Of a DNA stretch of 64,000 nt, positions 27,594 through 36,544 are shown piece after piece. Made by a program: the position numbers and the translations under genes. The notes below the pieces were generated by a model that was not told the DNA's origin, did not search any database, and was given only the letters and a program-made list of their open reading frames with translations. Where the stretch lies: assembly GCA_023701385.1 (NCBI GenBank), contig JAMPXC010000006.1:1-64000 (forward strand), written 5' to 3'. This DNA is from Pseudobdellovibrio sp. Its GTDB lineage: Bacteria > Bdellovibrionota > Bdellovibrionia > Bdellovibrionales > Bdellovibrionaceae. How positions within the stretch are numbered: position 1 is the stretch's first letter; every line of letters starts with the position of its first letter.

Positions 27594-28932
27594 TTCTCAA
27601 CTGTTTGCTAAATATGATATTCCGGTACCTCGTTATACAAGCTATCCTACGGTGCCGTACTGGGGAGTCGCTCCGACGACTGAACAATGGTTATCTCACT
27701 TACGCCAAGGTTTGGCTGGCGAAAATAGCCAATGGTCAATGTATATTCATGTTCCCTACTGTGAAAGTCTTTGTACATTTTGTGGCTGTAACAACATTAT
27801 TACCAAAGATCATAAAAAAGAAGATCCGTATGTTAAAATGGTTCTTAAAGAGTGGGAACTATACCGTAACTTAGTTCCTGAGTTTGCTAAAGCGCAGCTG
27901 CAAGGAATTCATTTAGGTGGCGGTACGCCGACATTTTTATCGGCTCAGCATTTAAAAGAATTACTTACGCCAATTTTAGAATACACAAAACGCGGTGAAC
28001 ACTTTGAGGGATCGATCGAAGTTGATCCTCGCCGTACCAACCGCGAGCAATTAGAGACTTTATACAGTTTGGGTTTTCGCCGTATCAGCTTAGGAGTTCA
28101 GGATTTTAGCCCTGAGATTCAGCGGTTGGTTAATCGTTCGCAGTCATTTGAGCAGACTGAAAGTATAACGCGTTTTGCCCGTGAAATTGGGTTCACGTCG
28201 GTGAATTACGATTTAATTTACGGGTTAGCGAAGCAGACTCTAGATACAATGAAGTACACCATTGAACAGACGAAAAAACTTCGTCCGGACCGCATTGCTT
28301 TGTATAGCTTTGCTCTGGTGCCTTGGATTAAGCCTGCCCAGCGTTTATTTAAAGACGAAGACCTTCCGGTCGGCAAAGATAAACGTGATCTTTATGAATA
28401 TGCTCGCACTGAATTATTAAACTTTGGTTACATTGAAGTAGGCATGGATCATTTTGCCTTACCTGATGATGCTCTGGCGACGGCCATGAAAAATGGGGAG
28501 TTGCACAGAAACTTTATGGGCTATACTGATCAAAAATCGCAAGTGATGCTGGGGCTTGGTGTCAGTTCGATTTCTGAAACACCACAAAGCTTTCACCAAA
28601 ACGAAAAAATTCTTCCGAAATACGAAGAGCTTTTAAATGCAGGACAAATTCCGACTTCACGTGGTCATATTTTAACAGATGAAGATGTTGTGCGCCGCCA
28701 GCAAATCTTATCATTAATGACGACCTACGAAGTTCAAATGACTGCGGAGCAAAAACAACTGGCTCCTGAGTTTTTAAAAGAAATGATTTCGGATAATTTA
28801 CTGGTTATCGAAGGTGATAAAGTTAAAGTTACAGATAACGGCAAACCATTTCTACGTAATATCTGTATTTTCTTTGATGAACATTTAAAACGTAATAAAC
28901 CGCAAACACGTATTTTTTCTCAGTCGTTATGA
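27586..28932 (+). CDS. hemN: Oxygen-independent coproporphyrinogen III oxidase (radical SAM)
   Basis: CESLCTFCGCN CxxxCxxC motif; PRYTSYPTVPYW. Likely start at 27586, overlapping hemE. Confidence 0.96.
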   Translation: MNDSQLFAKYDIPVPRYTSYPTVPYWGVAPTTEQWLSHLRQGLAGENSQWSMYIHVPYCESLCTFCGCNNIITKDHKKEDPYVKMVLKEWELYRNLVPEFAKAQLQGIHLGGGTPTFLSAQHLKELLTPILEYTKRGEHFEGSIEVDPRRTNREQLETLYSLGFRRISLGVQDFSPEIQRLVNRSQSFEQTESITRFAREIGFTSVNYDLIYGLAKQTLDTMKYTIEQTKKLRPDRIALYSFALVPWIKPAQRLFKDEDLPVGKDKRDLYEYARTELLNFGYIEVGMDHFALPDDALATAMKNGELHRNFMGYTDQKSQVMLGLGVSSISETPQSFHQNEKILPKYEELLNAGQIPTSRGHILTDEDVVRRQQILSLMTTYEVQMTAEQKQLAPEFLKEMISDNLLVIEGDKVKVTDNGKPFLRNICIFFDEHLKRNKPQTRIFSQSL

Positions 28933-30146
28933 TTCACATTGTTGGAGCTGGTTTTTCGGGGTTAAGTTTAGCTTGGGAGCTGCAAAAAGCAGGTCTCAAG
29001 GTCATCGTTTATGAAAAAAATCGAATAGGCGGGCGGATTCAGTCGTATCGTACGTCAACCCATTTACGCGAAACTGCAGCTAATGGAGTTTTATGGAATC
29101 CGCGTTTTGAAGTTTTAGCTAAAGAGCTGGGAGTTGAATTTCAACCGTCACAAAACGAAGCCAAAAAAAGATTTATTTTTCATAACCGGAGACCTCGCCG
29201 TTGGCCATTAAGTTTTATTGAAACAATTAAATTTTTAGCTGCGGGATTTAAGTTTATTCTAAAAAAAATCTTTACAAAAAAGCAAATTGATTCCGATCTG
29301 ACTCTTGAACAATGGGGTACACAGTCTTTCGGAAGTCCATTTACCGGCGTAATTTTAAGTGCAGCGGTGCAGGGAATTTTTGCTTTAACACCCAAATACT
29401 TAAATGCAAAAGCTGTTCTTGAATCGTTTAAATCTGTGACCGCATTTAAAAAAGCAAAAAAGTACAAGCCAGTGACATATTCTCCTAAAGACGGAATGGG
29501 CGAACTGATTTCAGCGTTAAAACAAAAGTTGGCTGAAAAAGATGTGATTATTAAACATCAAGAAATTCTGGATTTAAAAGATTTAAATCTAGAAAAAAAT
29601 GATGTGGTGGTGATAGCGACCTCAGCATGGGAGGCTGCTCAACTCATTCCACAGACACAGGGATTAGAGAAAATTCAAGCTGTGCCCATTACGACAGTAA
29701 CTTTGGTATGGCCTAAAGAGGCCAAAACCCTTGCAGGCTTTGGCTGTTTATTTCCGCCGGTAGAGCGTTTTTTTGCCGCCGGGGTTTTGATCAATTCTTG
29801 CATTTTTGCCAATCGTGGGCCGAACCCTTCGGAGACTTGGATTATTAGCCAAGATTTAGAAAAATTCAGTGACGAGCAGATTAAGCAACATGTGCTGATG
29901 GATCGTCAGCGTCTTTTTCCAAATCAAGACCAACCTTTAGAACGCCACATCGTACGTTGGCCTAAAGCGATTCCAGCCTATAATCTGCAATTGGAAAAGT
30001 TTTTAGAAACTTACCAGCAAACCGCAAAAACCTTGGCTAAAGATAATATTTATCTTTCTGGAAACTACCTGGGAAAGATCGGCTTAGCTAAAATCTATGA
30101 TCAAAACATCGTTTTAGCGAAAAAACTTAAAGTGCATTATGGGTAG
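28929..30146 (+). CDS. Protoporphyrinogen oxidase-like FAD-dependent amine oxidase (HemY/HemG type)
   Basis: IVGAGFSGLSLAWELQKAGLKVIVYEKNRIGGRI dinucleotide-binding motif; position between hemN and hemH. Confidence 0.85.
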   Translation: MIHIVGAGFSGLSLAWELQKAGLKVIVYEKNRIGGRIQSYRTSTHLRETAANGVLWNPRFEVLAKELGVEFQPSQNEAKKRFIFHNRRPRRWPLSFIETIKFLAAGFKFILKKIFTKKQIDSDLTLEQWGTQSFGSPFTGVILSAAVQGIFALTPKYLNAKAVLESFKSVTAFKKAKKYKPVTYSPKDGMGELISALKQKLAEKDVIIKHQEILDLKDLNLEKNDVVVIATSAWEAAQLIPQTQGLEKIQAVPITTVTLVWPKEAKTLAGFGCLFPPVERFFAAGVLINSCIFANRGPNPSETWIISQDLEKFSDEQIKQHVLMDRQRLFPNQDQPLERHIVRWPKAIPAYNLQLEKFLETYQQTAKTLAKDNIYLSGNYLGKIGLAKIYDQNIVLAKKLKVHYG

Positions 30147-31161
30147 AAAATTATTAATCCTTAGTCAAATCGGGAGCCCGACAAAGCCCGAACCTAAAGA
30201 GGTTGGGGCCTACTTGCGCCGTTTTTTGATGGATAAAAGAATTTTAGACATACCTTGGTTGCCGCGTTTTATTCTCGTAAATCTGGGCATCGTCTGGCGT
30301 CGTAAAAAGCCGTCGGCTGAAAAGTATCATAATATTTGGACCGCTGAAGGTTCGCCGTTGGTTGTTGAAACCACGAAGTTTGCTGAGGGTTTAAAAAAAC
30401 AATTACCCGACGTGGATGTAGCCATTCACTGGCGTTACGGTGAACTCAATGCCGAACAAACTTTAATGCCTTACCAGGCTAATAACTACGATGAAGTTCT
30501 AGTGGCACCGTTGTACCCGCAGTTTGCGATGGCTACGACCGGATCAGCTTTTGATGTGCTTTTGCCAGCTCTACAAAAAATCTGGCCCAAGCAGAAGAAT
30601 ATTAAAACTTTAAAACCATTTTTTGACCACGAAGCTTTTGTAAACGGGTGGGTGAATCGCTTAAAACCACTAATTAAAGAAGATCGCCATGTTCTTTTTT
30701 CATTTCACGGTCTTCCGGTTTCACAAATTAAAAAGACAACGGGCTGTGATTTAGAATCTTGCTGCGATCGTGCAGATAACGATTCAAACTGTTATTATGC
30801 CCAATGCAAACAAACCGTAAGAATTTTAAGCGATCATTTGGGATTAAAAGCGGAACAATACACTCTTTGTTTTCAATCGCGCGTAGGACCCAAAAAATGG
30901 TTAGAGCCATCGACAGAACAAACCACTGAAAGTTTGGTCAAGAATAAGGGCATTACGTCAGTAGTTGTGGCCTGTCCGGCATTTGTCACGGATGGCTTAG
31001 AAACGCTTGAAGAAATCAATATTGAGCTACAGCATAATTTCAAAAAATGGGGCGGTAAAGACTTTGTTATGGCCGAATCTTTGAACCATAATTTGGCTTG
31101 GATTTCGGGTTTTGCCGCGATTGTAAACGCTTCAGATCGCTGGGATCCAAATCACAGTTAA
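30139..31161 (+). CDS. hemH: Ferrochelatase
   Basis: APLYPQFAMATTGS, LFSFHGLPVSQIKKT, ACPAFVTDGLETLEEI; internal Cys-rich segment. Confidence 0.93.
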   Translation: MGRKLLILSQIGSPTKPEPKEVGAYLRRFLMDKRILDIPWLPRFILVNLGIVWRRKKPSAEKYHNIWTAEGSPLVVETTKFAEGLKKQLPDVDVAIHWRYGELNAEQTLMPYQANNYDEVLVAPLYPQFAMATTGSAFDVLLPALQKIWPKQKNIKTLKPFFDHEAFVNGWVNRLKPLIKEDRHVLFSFHGLPVSQIKKTTGCDLESCCDRADNDSNCYYAQCKQTVRILSDHLGLKAEQYTLCFQSRVGPKKWLEPSTEQTTESLVKNKGITSVVVACPAFVTDGLETLEEINIELQHNFKKWGGKDFVMAESLNHNLAWISGFAAIVNASDRWDPNHS

Positions 31162-31265: not shown

Positions 31266-31928
31266 GTGAAAAATGAGTTTATTGATCTCAGTGTAAAGCT
31301 CCAAAAAGTTCTCGGAAAAGAAGGTCTTTTTGTTATTCCGTTTGAAGAGCCCGGCTTACCTTTTTTTTCAAGTCTAACGAGCGAACAAAAAGATGTAATT
31401 CTTGAACAAATGCAAACCCTGCTTGAAATTGCCCAAGATTTGCAAGCGCACAATCTTAAAGTCACTGAACCCGCCAATTTAATTCGTACTTTCTTTAGAA
31501 AATTTAATCTGAATGCGCCTTCAAGGGTGGTGGATTCTATCACCAGGCACGATATCGTTGATGTTTGGAATTTAGATTCGCGGTTAATTATTGCCAGTTT
31601 TAATTTCTTTGATATTTGTACATATTCATTAGAAGAACTTTTTTGCAGGCCTTGGGCAGAGTTATTTTCGCGCGATAATGATATTCATATACAAATTTAT
31701 CAACTTTGCCGTTCACTCTTAAATGGCGAAATCACGCAACCGGTTGATACAACCTATATTCCGCAACACAAAGTGCGTGAAACCTACGCTCCTGAAAAAC
31801 ACTACGCTGTTTTGCAGCCTCGTATTTTTTCGCCGGTTTATGCCGGTGATAAATTGTTCGGTTTTATGAGTGTTAATCGCATCATCAAACTAGAACCTGA
31901 AAAAGTTTTAAGGTTACTTGATGAATAA
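31266..31928 (+). CDS. Hypothetical protein, PAS-like C-terminal region
   Basis: ORF overlapping the downstream kinase start; C-terminus resembles a PAS fold (weak). Confidence 0.6.
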   Translation: MKNEFIDLSVKLQKVLGKEGLFVIPFEEPGLPFFSSLTSEQKDVILEQMQTLLEIAQDLQAHNLKVTEPANLIRTFFRKFNLNAPSRVVDSITRHDIVDVWNLDSRLIIASFNFFDICTYSLEELFCRPWAELFSRDNDIHIQIYQLCRSLLNGEITQPVDTTYIPQHKVRETYAPEKHYAVLQPRIFSPVYAGDKLFGFMSVNRIIKLEPEKVLRLLDE

Positions 31929-34077
31929 AGAGTTTGCCATAGCCGCTATCGAAAATATTCCCAATATTGTTTTTGTAAAAGACGCAAAAACTTTTCGATA
32001 CCTTTATGTCAATAAAGCCTTTGAGGCGGTGATGGGTATACCGCTTTCGGCGATCATAGGTAAAACCGATAACGATTTTATGCCACCGACCCAGGCGCAT
32101 AGCTGTCTTGAAGCGGATATAAAAGTTCTTAAAGAAAACACTACGGTGCAGAGCTTTGATGATGAGATCGTGACTATCAAAGGGCCACGCATTTTTAATA
32201 CGCGTAAATTACCACTTCCCTCACCCCGTGGTGAAATCGAATATATTCTGGGAATCAGCGAAGACATCACCGAAAAAAGAATTTCAGAAAGACAAAGCGA
32301 ACAATTAGTGTTCGAGCGTGGCGCCAGAGCTGAAGCTGAAAAAGTAACGGCGCAGTTAAAATTTTTATCGCAAATCAGTACAGCTATCAGTGAATCTTTA
32401 GATACTAATTCAATTCTTCGTGCCGTTGCGACCATTACAAATAAATTTTATTCAGACTGGTTTGTGGTTGATTTATTTGCTCAGCCCACTTTAACCGTCG
32501 AACGTGTGATCGTGGCCAGTACTGACAGCCAAGGAAATAAATTTATCAAACCAGTTTCTGAGAAATGGCAGATTAGTCCCTCAAGTAAAGAAGGTACTAA
32601 TTATGTGATACGCACAGGGCATCCGAAGTTGTATATGCATGTGCCTGAAGAAATTTTACCGCAGTTAAGTTTTCCGGCGATTGAAGATTTGCAAATGAAT
32701 GAAATCACATCAGTGATGATTGTACCGCTTAAGTATTACGGGAAAATCTTCGGTGCTCTAACTTTTTATTCAACCAAACCAGAGCGTCGTTACACATCTC
32801 TTGATTTAAATATGGCGTTAGAGCTGGCTAAACGCATTTCATTTGCGCTGGAAAATGCACGACTATTTACTAAAGCCAACGAAGCCAGTCGGGCAAAGTC
32901 AGCTTTTTTAACCAACATGAGCCATGAAATCCGAACACCGTTAACGGCGATTTTAGGATTTGCAGAACTTCTTTCTGAAGATGAATCTATCTCTGAAAAA
33001 GCCTCGCAGTACGTGTCGACGATTCGCCGCAATGGAAACCAGCTTTTACGAATTGTAAATGAAGTGTTAGATTTATCTAAACTTGAAACCGACACCTTAG
33101 AAACTGTGAAAGCCAGTTTTTCTTTACCGCAGCTTATTGATAGCATAGGTGTTCTTCTTTCAATTAGAGCTTTAGAGAAGAATCTGGATTTTACAGTGAC
33201 TATGAATACGGCTATCGAAGAACATATTATCACCGATAGCTATCGCTTGCGACAAATCGTAATGAACGTGATCAGCAACGCCATTAAGTTTACGCAAAAT
33301 GGTTATGTGCATGTCGATGTCGCCACCCACGAATATCTACCGAAAAAACATCGCTTAGAAATCAAGGTGAGTGATTCGGGAATCGGTATGACCGAGCAGC
33401 AGATTAAAGATCTGTTTACGCCATTTACTCAGGTGGATTCTTCAATGACCCGTAAGTTCGGTGGCACAGGTTTAGGATTATTCTTAGCACGCCGAATGGC
33501 TATTTTATTAGGCGGTAATGTCGAGCTCATTCGTAGTGAGCCTGGCCGAGGTACAGAGTTTTTAATTTTCGTGGATATTGCTTATGATGAGCTTCCGCAA
33601 AATAAAGAAGTTCGTACTTTTGAATACGCGAAATCTTCTTTAGAAGTTAAATCACAAGTGATTCCGGCAAAGAACGAAGTTACAGGCGGTGTTAAAAGCA
33701 AGGTTCTTATCGTTGATGACTCAGAAGATAACCGCGAGTTATTGACCTATCTTCTTTCGGGCACAGGAATGAAAACGCTCACCGCCGAAAACGGCCAGCA
33801 AGCTATTGAGAAAGCTCTGACCCAACATTTTGATGTGATCTTAATGGATATTCAAATGCCTGAAATGGATGGCTTTGAGGCCGTTAAAATTCTGCGTGAA
33901 AACAACTGTGAAGCCAAAATCGTGGCGGTTACAGCGCACGCGATGAAAGGTGATCGCGAAATTTGTTTAAATCGCGGTTTTGATGATTATTTAAGTAAGC
34001 CGATTACGCGTGAGGCTCTAGTTGAAGTAACTCAGAAACACTTGAACGAGTCGACATCAATGCACGAACTTCGCTAA
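31921..34077 (+). CDS. Hybrid histidine kinase: PAS-GAF-HisKA-HATPase-REC
   Basis: FLTNMSHEIRTPLTAILGFAELL, VSDSGIGMTEQQI, GGTGLGLFLARRM, VLIVDDSEDNRELL...DVILMDIQMPEMDGFEAV. Confidence 0.94.
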   Translation: MNKEFAIAAIENIPNIVFVKDAKTFRYLYVNKAFEAVMGIPLSAIIGKTDNDFMPPTQAHSCLEADIKVLKENTTVQSFDDEIVTIKGPRIFNTRKLPLPSPRGEIEYILGISEDITEKRISERQSEQLVFERGARAEAEKVTAQLKFLSQISTAISESLDTNSILRAVATITNKFYSDWFVVDLFAQPTLTVERVIVASTDSQGNKFIKPVSEKWQISPSSKEGTNYVIRTGHPKLYMHVPEEILPQLSFPAIEDLQMNEITSVMIVPLKYYGKIFGALTFYSTKPERRYTSLDLNMALELAKRISFALENARLFTKANEASRAKSAFLTNMSHEIRTPLTAILGFAELLSEDESISEKASQYVSTIRRNGNQLLRIVNEVLDLSKLETDTLETVKASFSLPQLIDSIGVLLSIRALEKNLDFTVTMNTAIEEHIITDSYRLRQIVMNVISNAIKFTQNGYVHVDVATHEYLPKKHRLEIKVSDSGIGMTEQQIKDLFTPFTQVDSSMTRKFGGTGLGLFLARRMAILLGGNVELIRSEPGRGTEFLIFVDIAYDELPQNKEVRTFEYAKSSLEVKSQVIPAKNEVTGGVKSKVLIVDDSEDNRELLTYLLSGTGMKTLTAENGQQAIEKALTQHFDVILMDIQMPEMDGFEAVKILRENNCEAKIVAVTAHAMKGDREICLNRGFDDYLSKPITREALVEVTQKHLNESTSMHELR

Positions 34078-34693
34078 GCGGAGTGTGGATATGTTCTTCC
34101 CAGCGGAAAGCAAAAGGTGTTCTTAATTGTTCACCATAATTAAACCCCTGATTCACTTCGCAAGTCAGTTTCACTAGTTCGCTTGGGCGTTTAAATAAAA
34201 AATGAAAAAAAGCACCGGCTACAATTACTGAAGTAAAAGGGCTGCAGCCCTTCACCATAAAGATCGCATTAAGTTTAGCTTCTTCTTCAACGGTAGTTCC
34301 GATATTTAACAGAGCATGCACATAATCATGAACTACACGTTGGCGCTCGCGCATATAAATTTTTTCGCTCGCCAAACTTACATCAGGTGCAAAGTAAGGT
34401 GTTAAACCAAAAGTCTGCATGTGATTGTAGTAGGCTAAGCCGAAACTTCCTGGCGCGCAGGTTTTAAGTTTTTCCATATCGAGCGGGCTTGGTGAATAGC
34501 GTTCAGCGATCAGAACTTTGGCTTGAGCATCTTCTTTAACATGTAAAACAGCTTCATCAAAAGCTTTAAGGTCAGTCAGTTGGTTAGCTAACTGAATCAG
34601 CGAGTTTAATTCATGCGGGCGTAAGAATAAACGTACGCCGTAGTACATCGCTTTTAAAACTTTGCCTGGAATACTAAAATACGTCAGCTTCAT
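34004..34693 (-). CDS. Coq4-like protein
   Basis: HDxxH-x11-E metal motif (VVHDYVHALLNIGTTVEEE) and RYSPSPLDMEKLKTCAPGSFGLAYYNHMQTFGLTP, matching the Coq4 family pattern. Confidence 0.78.
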   Translation of the reverse strand: MKLTYFSIPGKVLKAMYYGVRLFLRPHELNSLIQLANQLTDLKAFDEAVLHVKEDAQAKVLIAERYSPSPLDMEKLKTCAPGSFGLAYYNHMQTFGLTPYFAPDVSLASEKIYMRERQRVVHDYVHALLNIGTTVEEEAKLNAIFMVKGCSPFTSVIVAGAFFHFLFKRPSELVKLTCEVNQGFNYGEQLRTPFAFRWEEHIHTPLSEVRALMSTRSSVSELLQLEPHA

Positions 34694-35582
34694 AAATCGC
34701 AGATTTTAAATTTAGATCAGGGGTCATTTTAGTTAAACTTTTGCACGGGCCTACGTTAATAAAACGCATTTCTTCTTCAAGACCTTCAAGTTTTTGAATC
34801 GCTTCGCCCCAACGTAGCGGCTGAGTCATATTCAACATCAACTCACTTTTCATAATATCGGTATTCGTGATTTCATCACACGAGATGCATGAAAAAATAC
34901 GGTTTGTAGGTGTTTGTAGCTGAATATCTTTAACTTCAAAAGCCGCCGCATGCACATACGGAGAAATATATCTTGAGTGAGCCGGGTAGTCTAAAATCTT
35001 AACGGTGCGAAATCTTTTTTCTTTCGCGATCATTTGCAATTGTTCTAGCTCTTGGTAACGGCCACCGATATTTAAAAAATTAGGTGTCATCACTGAAATA
35101 TCTAAGCCTAAATTTTGCATTTCGATAATTTCATCTTGAGTAAAAGCCGCGCCTGCAGGCTTTGAAACACCTACGTTGGCTCCGATTTTTTCAATGCCTT
35201 GCAGTTTATCGGCAAAACGAATGTAGCCCATAATACAAGTTTCGAAACTCACTACGTGGCTGATCACCGCACGGGCCAAATCGCCAAGTGAACAACCTAA
35301 AGTCCAATCAGGTTTAATGCCTTTTTTCATTAAATGCTCAGAGACGCCCACTTGAATTGCACAAATGGCTGTGGCGGCTTTACTGATATTTTCAACCGAA
35401 TAGATCTCTTGCATTGAACCTTGCAGATAATTTTCAAATTTAAATTCGTGGTTGGCTTGGGTTTTAAAAATCTCTTCAACTTGCCTTAAACGCGCTGCTA
35501 CTTCAGGAACATTTAAGTAGCGCATACGATCTTCAGCTTTGATCAGACCGTTTAGGCCTGGAAAAATAAATGCGGTTTTCAT
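34674..35582 (-). CDS. FabD-like acyltransferase domain protein
   Basis: AT-fold signatures: WTLGCSLGDLARAVISHVVSF (nucleophile elbow), DYPAHSRYISPYV (His motif). Confidence 0.78.
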   Translation of the reverse strand: MKTAFIFPGLNGLIKAEDRMRYLNVPEVAARLRQVEEIFKTQANHEFKFENYLQGSMQEIYSVENISKAATAICAIQVGVSEHLMKKGIKPDWTLGCSLGDLARAVISHVVSFETCIMGYIRFADKLQGIEKIGANVGVSKPAGAAFTQDEIIEMQNLGLDISVMTPNFLNIGGRYQELEQLQMIAKEKRFRTVKILDYPAHSRYISPYVHAAAFEVKDIQLQTPTNRIFSCISCDEITNTDIMKSELMLNMTQPLRWGEAIQKLEGLEEEMRFINVGPCKSLTKMTPDLNLKSAIYEADVF

Positions 35583-36544
35583 AACGAAACACTCGCTTGA
35601 TTTAGAGATAACCCACGTTGCGCTTGCTCTAACGCGTAACTTACGCCAATCAATGTCGTTTCAGAAGCAAGAGCCGACATATGTTGGTGTAAACGTTCAG
35701 GGCTAAAATCTGAAAGTGCGGTTAAATCGGGAGTTAAATCAACTTTAAAGGCTTCTTTAGTTTGTCCGGTGATAAAGAGCACGGAATCTTCAAGCACTTT
35801 AGCATTCTGAGCGCGAGCATTTTTATTTTCATTTTCAGCTAAAGCTAAAATCCACGTCGTTAAGCGCGAGCGGCTTTTTGTTAAAGAACTTTCTAAAGAT
35901 TTTGTTTCTGTTTTCGCCGGATTTAAATTCTTCTCGATCACTTGAATCATACGGCGGCCTAAAAGCTCACACATTTCAGCTTCGATATTGTTAATTTCAT
36001 CGATATCAAAACGGGCTTCAGCCGATAAAGTTTCATAAAACTTGCGGCCTAAAGCTAAATGGTCAGCTTCGTCTTTTAACACCACAGCTAAACCTTTTTT
36101 GATCGCTTCGTTTTTTGTAAGCTTATAATAAGCCGTGTACATTTGCAGAGGCACTTGTTCAATCGTTAAAGCACCGTGAACATAACCAGCAAAGCGGCTG
36201 GCCGAGCGGGCTTTAAGTAATAATTGCTGTCCGAAGAATCCTAAAACGAAGTTGATGCCGATTTCAGAGAGCTCGTTTTCCATCGCATAGAATTTAAGGT
36301 CAGAATAAAGTTTAACAGGTTTTAAAGCGCGTAGCTGAAAGGCGTGGCGGTGTTCATCTTGGGCGTGTTGCGTGATTTCAACTAAGGCTTCGGGTGGCGT
36401 TTCATGGGTGATGGTTTTAATGATTTCACGGGCAGCAACCTCTTCCATATTGCCGAGAGTGGCTAAAAAAGCAGATTCAATATTTGGATCACTCATCACC
36501 AATTGCGCGAGCTGATCCATTGTCTGTTTAAGACTTGTTACCAT
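35579..36544 (-). CDS. Ferritin-like diiron protein (putative oxygenase)
   Basis: Two Glu + ExxH sets: EEVAAREIIK...HAQDEHRHAFQ and IEQVPLQMY...LKDEADHLALGRKFY. Confidence 0.75.
   Translation of the reverse strand: MVTSLKQTMDQLAQLVMSDPNIESAFLATLGNMEEVAAREIIKTITHETPPEALVEITQHAQDEHRHAFQLRALKPVKLYSDLKFYAMENELSEIGINFVLGFFGQQLLLKARSASRFAGYVHGALTIEQVPLQMYTAYYKLTKNEAIKKGLAVVLKDEADHLALGRKFYETLSAEARFDIDEINNIEAEMCELLGRRMIQVIEKNLNPAKTETKSLESSLTKSRSRLTTWILALAENENKNARAQNAKVLEDSVLFITGQTKEAFKVDLTPDLTALSDFSPERLHQHMSALASETTLIGVSYALEQAQRGLSLNQASVSL

Follow-up and report, generated by a model that had tools for sequence, protein, structure and literature searches.

The operon analyzed here consists of three overlapping genes that encode a predicted ferritin-fold diiron oxygenase (gene 1), a FabD-fold protein (gene 2), and a Coq4-like protein (gene 3). 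With a probability of roughly 0.6, these genes form a previously undescribed module for the oxidative tailoring of fatty-acyl chains, in which the acyltransferase-like protein is the hub. This reading was adopted because the recurring parts are acyl-handling and lipid-oxidizing enzymes, and it is built on homologies, kept metal ligands, lost malonyl determinants, gene coupling, and recurrence. The window, i.e., the whole 64,000-nucleotide stretch of DNA that was analyzed, belongs to a 3.18-Mb genome (96 contigs, 95% complete) of the same genus as Bdellovibrio sp. qaytius (CP025734.1).

All three genes lie on the minus strand, and their ORF coordinates confirmed the layout given in a preliminary description of this DNA, with a 4-nt overlap between genes 1 and 2, formed by an ATGA stop/start junction, and a 20-nt overlap between genes 2 and 3. 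An OmpA-like gene is located upstream of gene 1, from which it is separated by a 98-nt gap. The 3′ end of a gene encoding a PAS-GAF hybrid histidine kinase overlaps the convergent gene 3 by 74 nt, and the window further contains a ferrochelatase gene and a protoporphyrinogen-oxidase-like gene that overlap by 8 nt. As described earlier, no ketosynthase or ACP-like motif was present among the window's ORFs, and FabF, FabH, and FabG homologues were also missing from them. An anti-phage defense library returned zero matches, promoter and terminator scans gave no more sites than shuffled sequence, and DNA repeats around the operon were limited to short, chance-like matches. A literature search, in which subscription papers were mostly not covered, found no paper describing the module.

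Coordinates of the operon genes, of other genes in the window, and of loci in related genomes
Feature	Sequence	Positions	Strand	Remarks
Gene 1	window	35579-36544	-	321 aa; predicted BioE-family (cADO-like) ferritin-fold diiron oxygenase
Gene 2	window	34674-35582	-	302 aa; FabD-fold acyltransferase/acyl-hydrolase-like protein
Gene 3	window	34004-34693	-	229 aa; Coq4-like protein, zinc motif HDxxH-x11-E
PAS-GAF hybrid histidine kinase gene	window	31918-34077		
Ferrochelatase and protoporphyrinogen-oxidase-like genes	window	28929-31161		
Membrane fatty-acid hydroxylase-GH3 acyl-amido synthetase fusion	L292	9605-12082	-	Pfam shown for this locus
Membrane fatty-acid hydroxylase-GH3 fusion	L293	2698-5166	+	
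Membrane fatty-acid hydroxylase-GH3 fusion	L294	2442-4913	+	
GntA-like and DUF1989 genes	L127	7472-8772		
GntA-like and DUF1989 genes	L013	9585-10890		
GntA-like and DUF1989 genes	L128, L135			
Stand-alone Arg-less FabD-fold member	L131	8133-9089		no diiron neighbor
Stand-alone Arg-less FabD-fold members	L138, L139, L143, L144			no diiron neighbor
Split acyltransferase gene	L135	8675-9671		two reading frames

The proposal that these genes make up a functional unit was supported by their recurrence. The gene 1-gene 2 pair was found directly adjacent at 26 loci distributed among 10 genera and 5 families of the phylum; 24 pairs overlap and two are 2 to 4 nt apart, the largest overlaps being uncertain given the mechanical choice of start codons. 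The trees of the two protein families broadly match. The complete trio was seen in only two congeners, the window's genome and Bdellovibrio sp. qaytius, in which the overlaps are identical (4 and 20 nt). The co-occurrence check named beforehand thus recovered the trio in one close relative, with the two pairwise links being more widespread. A survey of 369 genomes of the phylum extended the acyltransferase family to further bacterial families, and the diiron gene was directly upstream in all seven complete loci inspected there. The third gene beside the pair varies, being Coq4, a fatty-acid hydroxylase, or none: a linked Coq4 is absent from 24 of the 26 pairs, and 5 carry a third overlapping gene for a membrane FA_hydroxylase (E values of 1e-26 to 1e-28 where scanned). 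Whether the third gene encodes Coq4 or FA_hydroxylase, the acyltransferase gene overlaps it in all cases (9/9). The convergent neighbors of the pair in one genus (three genomes) encode a fatty-acid hydroxylase-GH3 fusion, an enolase-superfamily enzyme, and a carboxyl (ICMT) methyltransferase. In four Bdellovibrio-group genomes, genes encoding a GntA-like heme N-hydroxylase and a DUF1989 protein adjoin the pair on a side that differs by genome; both of the gene pairs scanned scored as GntA/DUF1989, with a GntA match of 217 bits for a cut-off of 145. One genome of the Bdellovibrio group has an acyltransferase gene that is split across two reading frames.

Gene 2 carries the nucleophile elbow noted earlier (GCSLGD) and matches PF00698 (Acyl_transf_1) with an E value of 3.3e-13. 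It scores 68.7 bits with the fabD model TIGR00128, below the curated cut-off of 260.9; the window's genome has a separate, genuine fabD gene elsewhere (G000:C79, 305.8 bits). The Ser92-His201 dyad of FabD is retained as S98 and H202, Arg117 is replaced by F123, and Gln11 is lost. When family members were aligned with real FabD, the Ser and His were present in 30/30, Phe or Tyr replaced the malonyl-binding Arg117 in 30/30, and the oxyanion Gln11 was absent in 30/30. The family also has PGLN or PGLD where FabD has PGQG and forms a group with 100% support that is separate from FabD. The PksD acyl hydrolase was both the top PDB match by sequence (E value of 3.4e-7) and the top fold match of the AF2 model in Foldseek (E value of 9.4e-17, TM of 0.78) and, according to its sequence alignment to gene 2, also lacks an Arg at the FabD Arg117 position. 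Gene 2 shares the fold and the Ser-His dyad with both proteins and the replaced Arg117 with PksD-type acyl hydrolases, but the trans-AT polyketide synthase context of the latter is missing from the window, which holds no ketosynthase homologue. Of the earlier suggestion that this FabD-type domain loads acyl groups, the fold stands and the loading needs revision, since both the Arg and the Gln have been lost and an acyl hydrolase provides the closest fold. Gene 2 would instead be predicted to transfer or hydrolyze neutral acyl chains rather than to load malonyl groups. Stand-alone Arg-less members of the FabD fold with no diiron neighbor were also observed. A scan of the contig collection with the gene 2-family alignment retrieved two close relatives, the other matches being distant (about 20 to 26% identity) and resembling ordinary FabD.

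Gene 3 matches PF05019 (Coq4) with 68 bits, above the gathering cut-off of 22.9 (E value of 9.7e-19), and PDB entry 3msq with an E value of 8.9e-15. The HDxxH-x11-E motif noted in the preliminary description corresponds to HDYVHALLNIGTTVEEE and is an intact zinc motif. In animal CoQ synthesis, COQ4 acts as a zinc-dependent C1 decarboxylase, an activity for which this motif is needed (PMC7615680). Seventeen of the 18 Coq4 proteins compared have the intact motif. Coq4 is present in 15 of 140 genomes of the order and is absent from most congeners. Its gene overlaps the acyltransferase gene in 4 genomes representing 3 genera and 2 families, and the four acyltransferase-linked Coq4 proteins, including gene 3, form one clade with 99% support, with their acyltransferases falling in two places of the gene 2 tree. 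Two acyltransferase-Coq4 pairs (G086 and G091) lack a BioE-like gene, which means that the product of gene 1 is not necessarily what gene 3 acts on. A separate Coq4 cluster was seen in 5 genomes (L201, L202, L204, L205, and L209) with a protein weakly assigned to FeeM (E value of 0.012), a hexapeptide/membrane protein, and another ferritin-like diiron protein; one genome (G058) carries both this cluster and a biotin-operon BioE. A single-protein Coq4 scan of the contig collection gave no usable match. Literature searches found no paper that connects Coq4 to diiron or N-acyl clusters or to Bdellovibrio, and no Coq4 role outside quinone synthesis in the papers searched.

The product had earlier been proposed to be acyl- or quinone-like. 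In a variant quinone pathway, the Coq4-like protein would act on a prenylated ring and gene 1 would be a COQ7-like ring hydroxylase. Such a pathway, which we regard as improbable, would fit the Coq4 family member with its intact zinc motif, the decarboxylase role of COQ4, and the fact that COQ7 is likewise a ferritin-fold diiron enzyme. However, of the two markers used for a ubiquinone-pathway setting, menD was above the cut-off in the window's genome and ubiA was not, making a ubiquinone role of gene 3 unlikely. Coq4 is also absent in most congeners, relatives have a fatty-acid hydroxylase or nothing in its place, and gene 1 clusters with BioE (see below) and gave no COQ7 match. Gene 3 thus resembles COQ4 in its Pfam family, zinc motif, and PDB relative but differs from it in belonging to a clade of its own tied to an acyltransferase-like gene, with no sign of a ubiquinone pathway. 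The quinone reading of the operon was rejected on the basis of menD, the lack of ubiA above the cut-off, the replaceable Coq4, and the BioE-like gene 1. The acyl-modifying part of the earlier proposal was supported, as was the view that this is not an ordinary coq or fab cluster.

Gene 1 contains the two ExxH motifs reported earlier, at residues 64 to 67 (DEHRH) and 159 to 162 (DEADH), and further ligands at E34 and E129, so that all six iron ligands of the first domain (E34, E64, H67, E129, E159, and H162) are kept. All first domains compared in the family alignment have EEHEEH at the ligand columns. The second domain (approximately residues 216 to 321) is what remains, in degenerate form, of a tandem duplication of the diiron domain that related species retain intact: in Bdellovibrio-type homologues (426 to 460 aa), the second diiron domain has its full set of six ligands, and this second-half site is lost in the window protein, the qaytius protein, and several others. 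Single-sequence searches with gene 1 returned only weak matches, including rubrerythrin and Ferritin_2, and phmmer found no match in the PDB, for which the family profile was required. The top PDB folds retrieved by Foldseek with the AF2 model (pLDDT of 85) were nearly all cyanobacterial aldehyde-deformylating oxygenase (ADO), with a probability of 1.00, a TM of about 0.5 by target, and an E value of 0.02 that is not significant alone; the family profile also matched ADO chains in the PDB (E value of 3e-5). These matches, which make cADO the closest solved fold, are what would be expected if the operon served hydrocarbon or aldehyde metabolism, with gene 1 as an alkane-making ADO to which gene 2 delivers acyl groups. 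We find this improbable as well, since the score of gene 1 with the NCBIfam ADO model (TIGR04059) was 13.8, far below the cut-off of 222.65, no acyl-ACP reductase was recognized adjoining the module (no profile search was made for it), and gene 1 is closer to BioE.

A search of 60 relatives identified a strong gene 1 homologue in qaytius, tandem-duplicated ones in two genomes of the same family, and short ones in two genomes of the same order. These short homologues are found in biotin operons, either following a fused bioD-bioA gene or flanked by bioD and bioA (gene names at these loci were assigned from sequence, with bioB confirmed by profile), which led to the comparison of gene 1 with BioE. 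BioE, an enzyme of biotin synthesis that was described only recently, is known from Elizabethkingia and Chlamydia and established in the genus Chryseobacterium; it is a ferritin-like diiron oxygenase, likened to cADO by its own authors, that converts long acyl groups (long acyl-ACP) to a pimeloyl thioester (pimeloyl-ACP), and its ligands in Elizabethkingia are E26, E53, H56, E125, E155, and H158 (PMC12915131). In hhalign, module-type gene 1 proteins matched the BioE alignment with a probability of 97.9 and an E value of 4.2e-13; the six ligands (E-ExxH-E-ExxH) are all conserved with closely similar spacing. These placements support the diiron oxygenase chemistry predicted earlier for gene 1, whose reaction may nonetheless differ from that of BioE given an identity of about 20 to 25%. 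The family profile matched in 32 of 140 genomes of the order Bdellovibrionales and gave a single match in Chryseobacterium rhizosphaerae (E value of 1.7e-34), adjoining bioF, bioD, and bioB, in this order, and bioA. At eleven further non-module loci (ten of the order plus Chryseobacterium), biotin genes were beside or near the diiron gene in 11/11. Except for one weak, broken match, all inspected loci of the family showed one of two settings, namely coupling to gene 2 or a position within or next to biotin genes.

This raises the question of whether gene 1 might be a genuine BioE, with the operon providing pimeloyl-ACP for biotin synthesis. Despite the shared family, the six ligands, and the BioE loci within the same order, this is highly unlikely. 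The bioB gene was above the cut-off in just two genomes, those with the gene 1 homologue in a biotin operon, and in neither the window's genome, which is 95% complete, nor 20 other genomes with module genes (together 19 diiron-acyltransferase and 2 acyltransferase-Coq4 genomes, those from the additional families of the phylum-wide survey being left out), which argues that the module is not for biotin. In the family tree, whose long branches leave the deep order unsure, second domains form one group (support of 99) and BioE proteins another (support of 85) that excludes the window's gene 1, its first domain clustering with other acyltransferase-linked first domains. Unlike BioE, gene 1 also lies outside a biotin operon, has an extra diiron domain, degenerate in the window, and is coupled to an Arg-less FabD-fold protein, i.e., to genes absent from the inspected biotin operons. 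A biotin role of the operon is largely refuted by the lack of bioB above the cut-off, the tree position, and the gene coupling. Judging from its sequence, gene 1 encodes a BioE paralogue that belongs to a non-biotin branch of that family. An iron- or peroxide-handling ferritin-like protein in a coincidental neighborhood, to which the weak rubrerythrin and Ferritin_2 matches would correspond, is just as implausible, coincidence being excluded by the 26 recurrent adjacent pairs in five families with broadly matching gene trees.

For the oxidative fatty-acyl tailoring module, we infer the substrate, the order of steps, the choice between cleavage and hydroxylation by gene 1, and the Coq4 step. 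Long acyl chains from ordinary fatty-acid synthesis, carried on ACP or CoA, would be the input; use of a carrier protein is suggested by family precedent. Gene 1, as a BioE/cADO-like diiron oxygenase, would attack the acyl chain using O2 and electrons, and gene 2, as an Arg-less FabD-fold Ser/His enzyme, would dock the carrier and move or hydrolyze the neutral acyl group. An exchangeable third enzyme would then finish the lipid, namely the Coq4-like zinc protein here, possibly a decarboxylase, and the membrane fatty-acid hydroxylase in relatives. Candidate products are an acyl conjugate or an envelope lipid that has been oxidized or shortened in its chain; a search of the Bdellovibrio lipid A literature returned nothing relevant.

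More tentatively, and with less than even odds, this branch of the BioE family might drive a phylum-wide modular lipid or signal pathway in predatory bacteria and their kin, with the Arg-less FabD-fold protein as a common acyl hub and Coq4 as a zinc enzyme that processes lipids and has no part in quinone synthesis. BioE is a proposed drug target, and a non-biotin branch of its family could give rise to wrong annotations and suggests that the family has further chemistry. The linkage between Coq4 and the acyltransferase would offer a testable role for Coq4 outside quinone synthesis, and the module as a whole would mark a conserved, apparently unstudied acyl pathway in a phylum noted for predatory bacteria.
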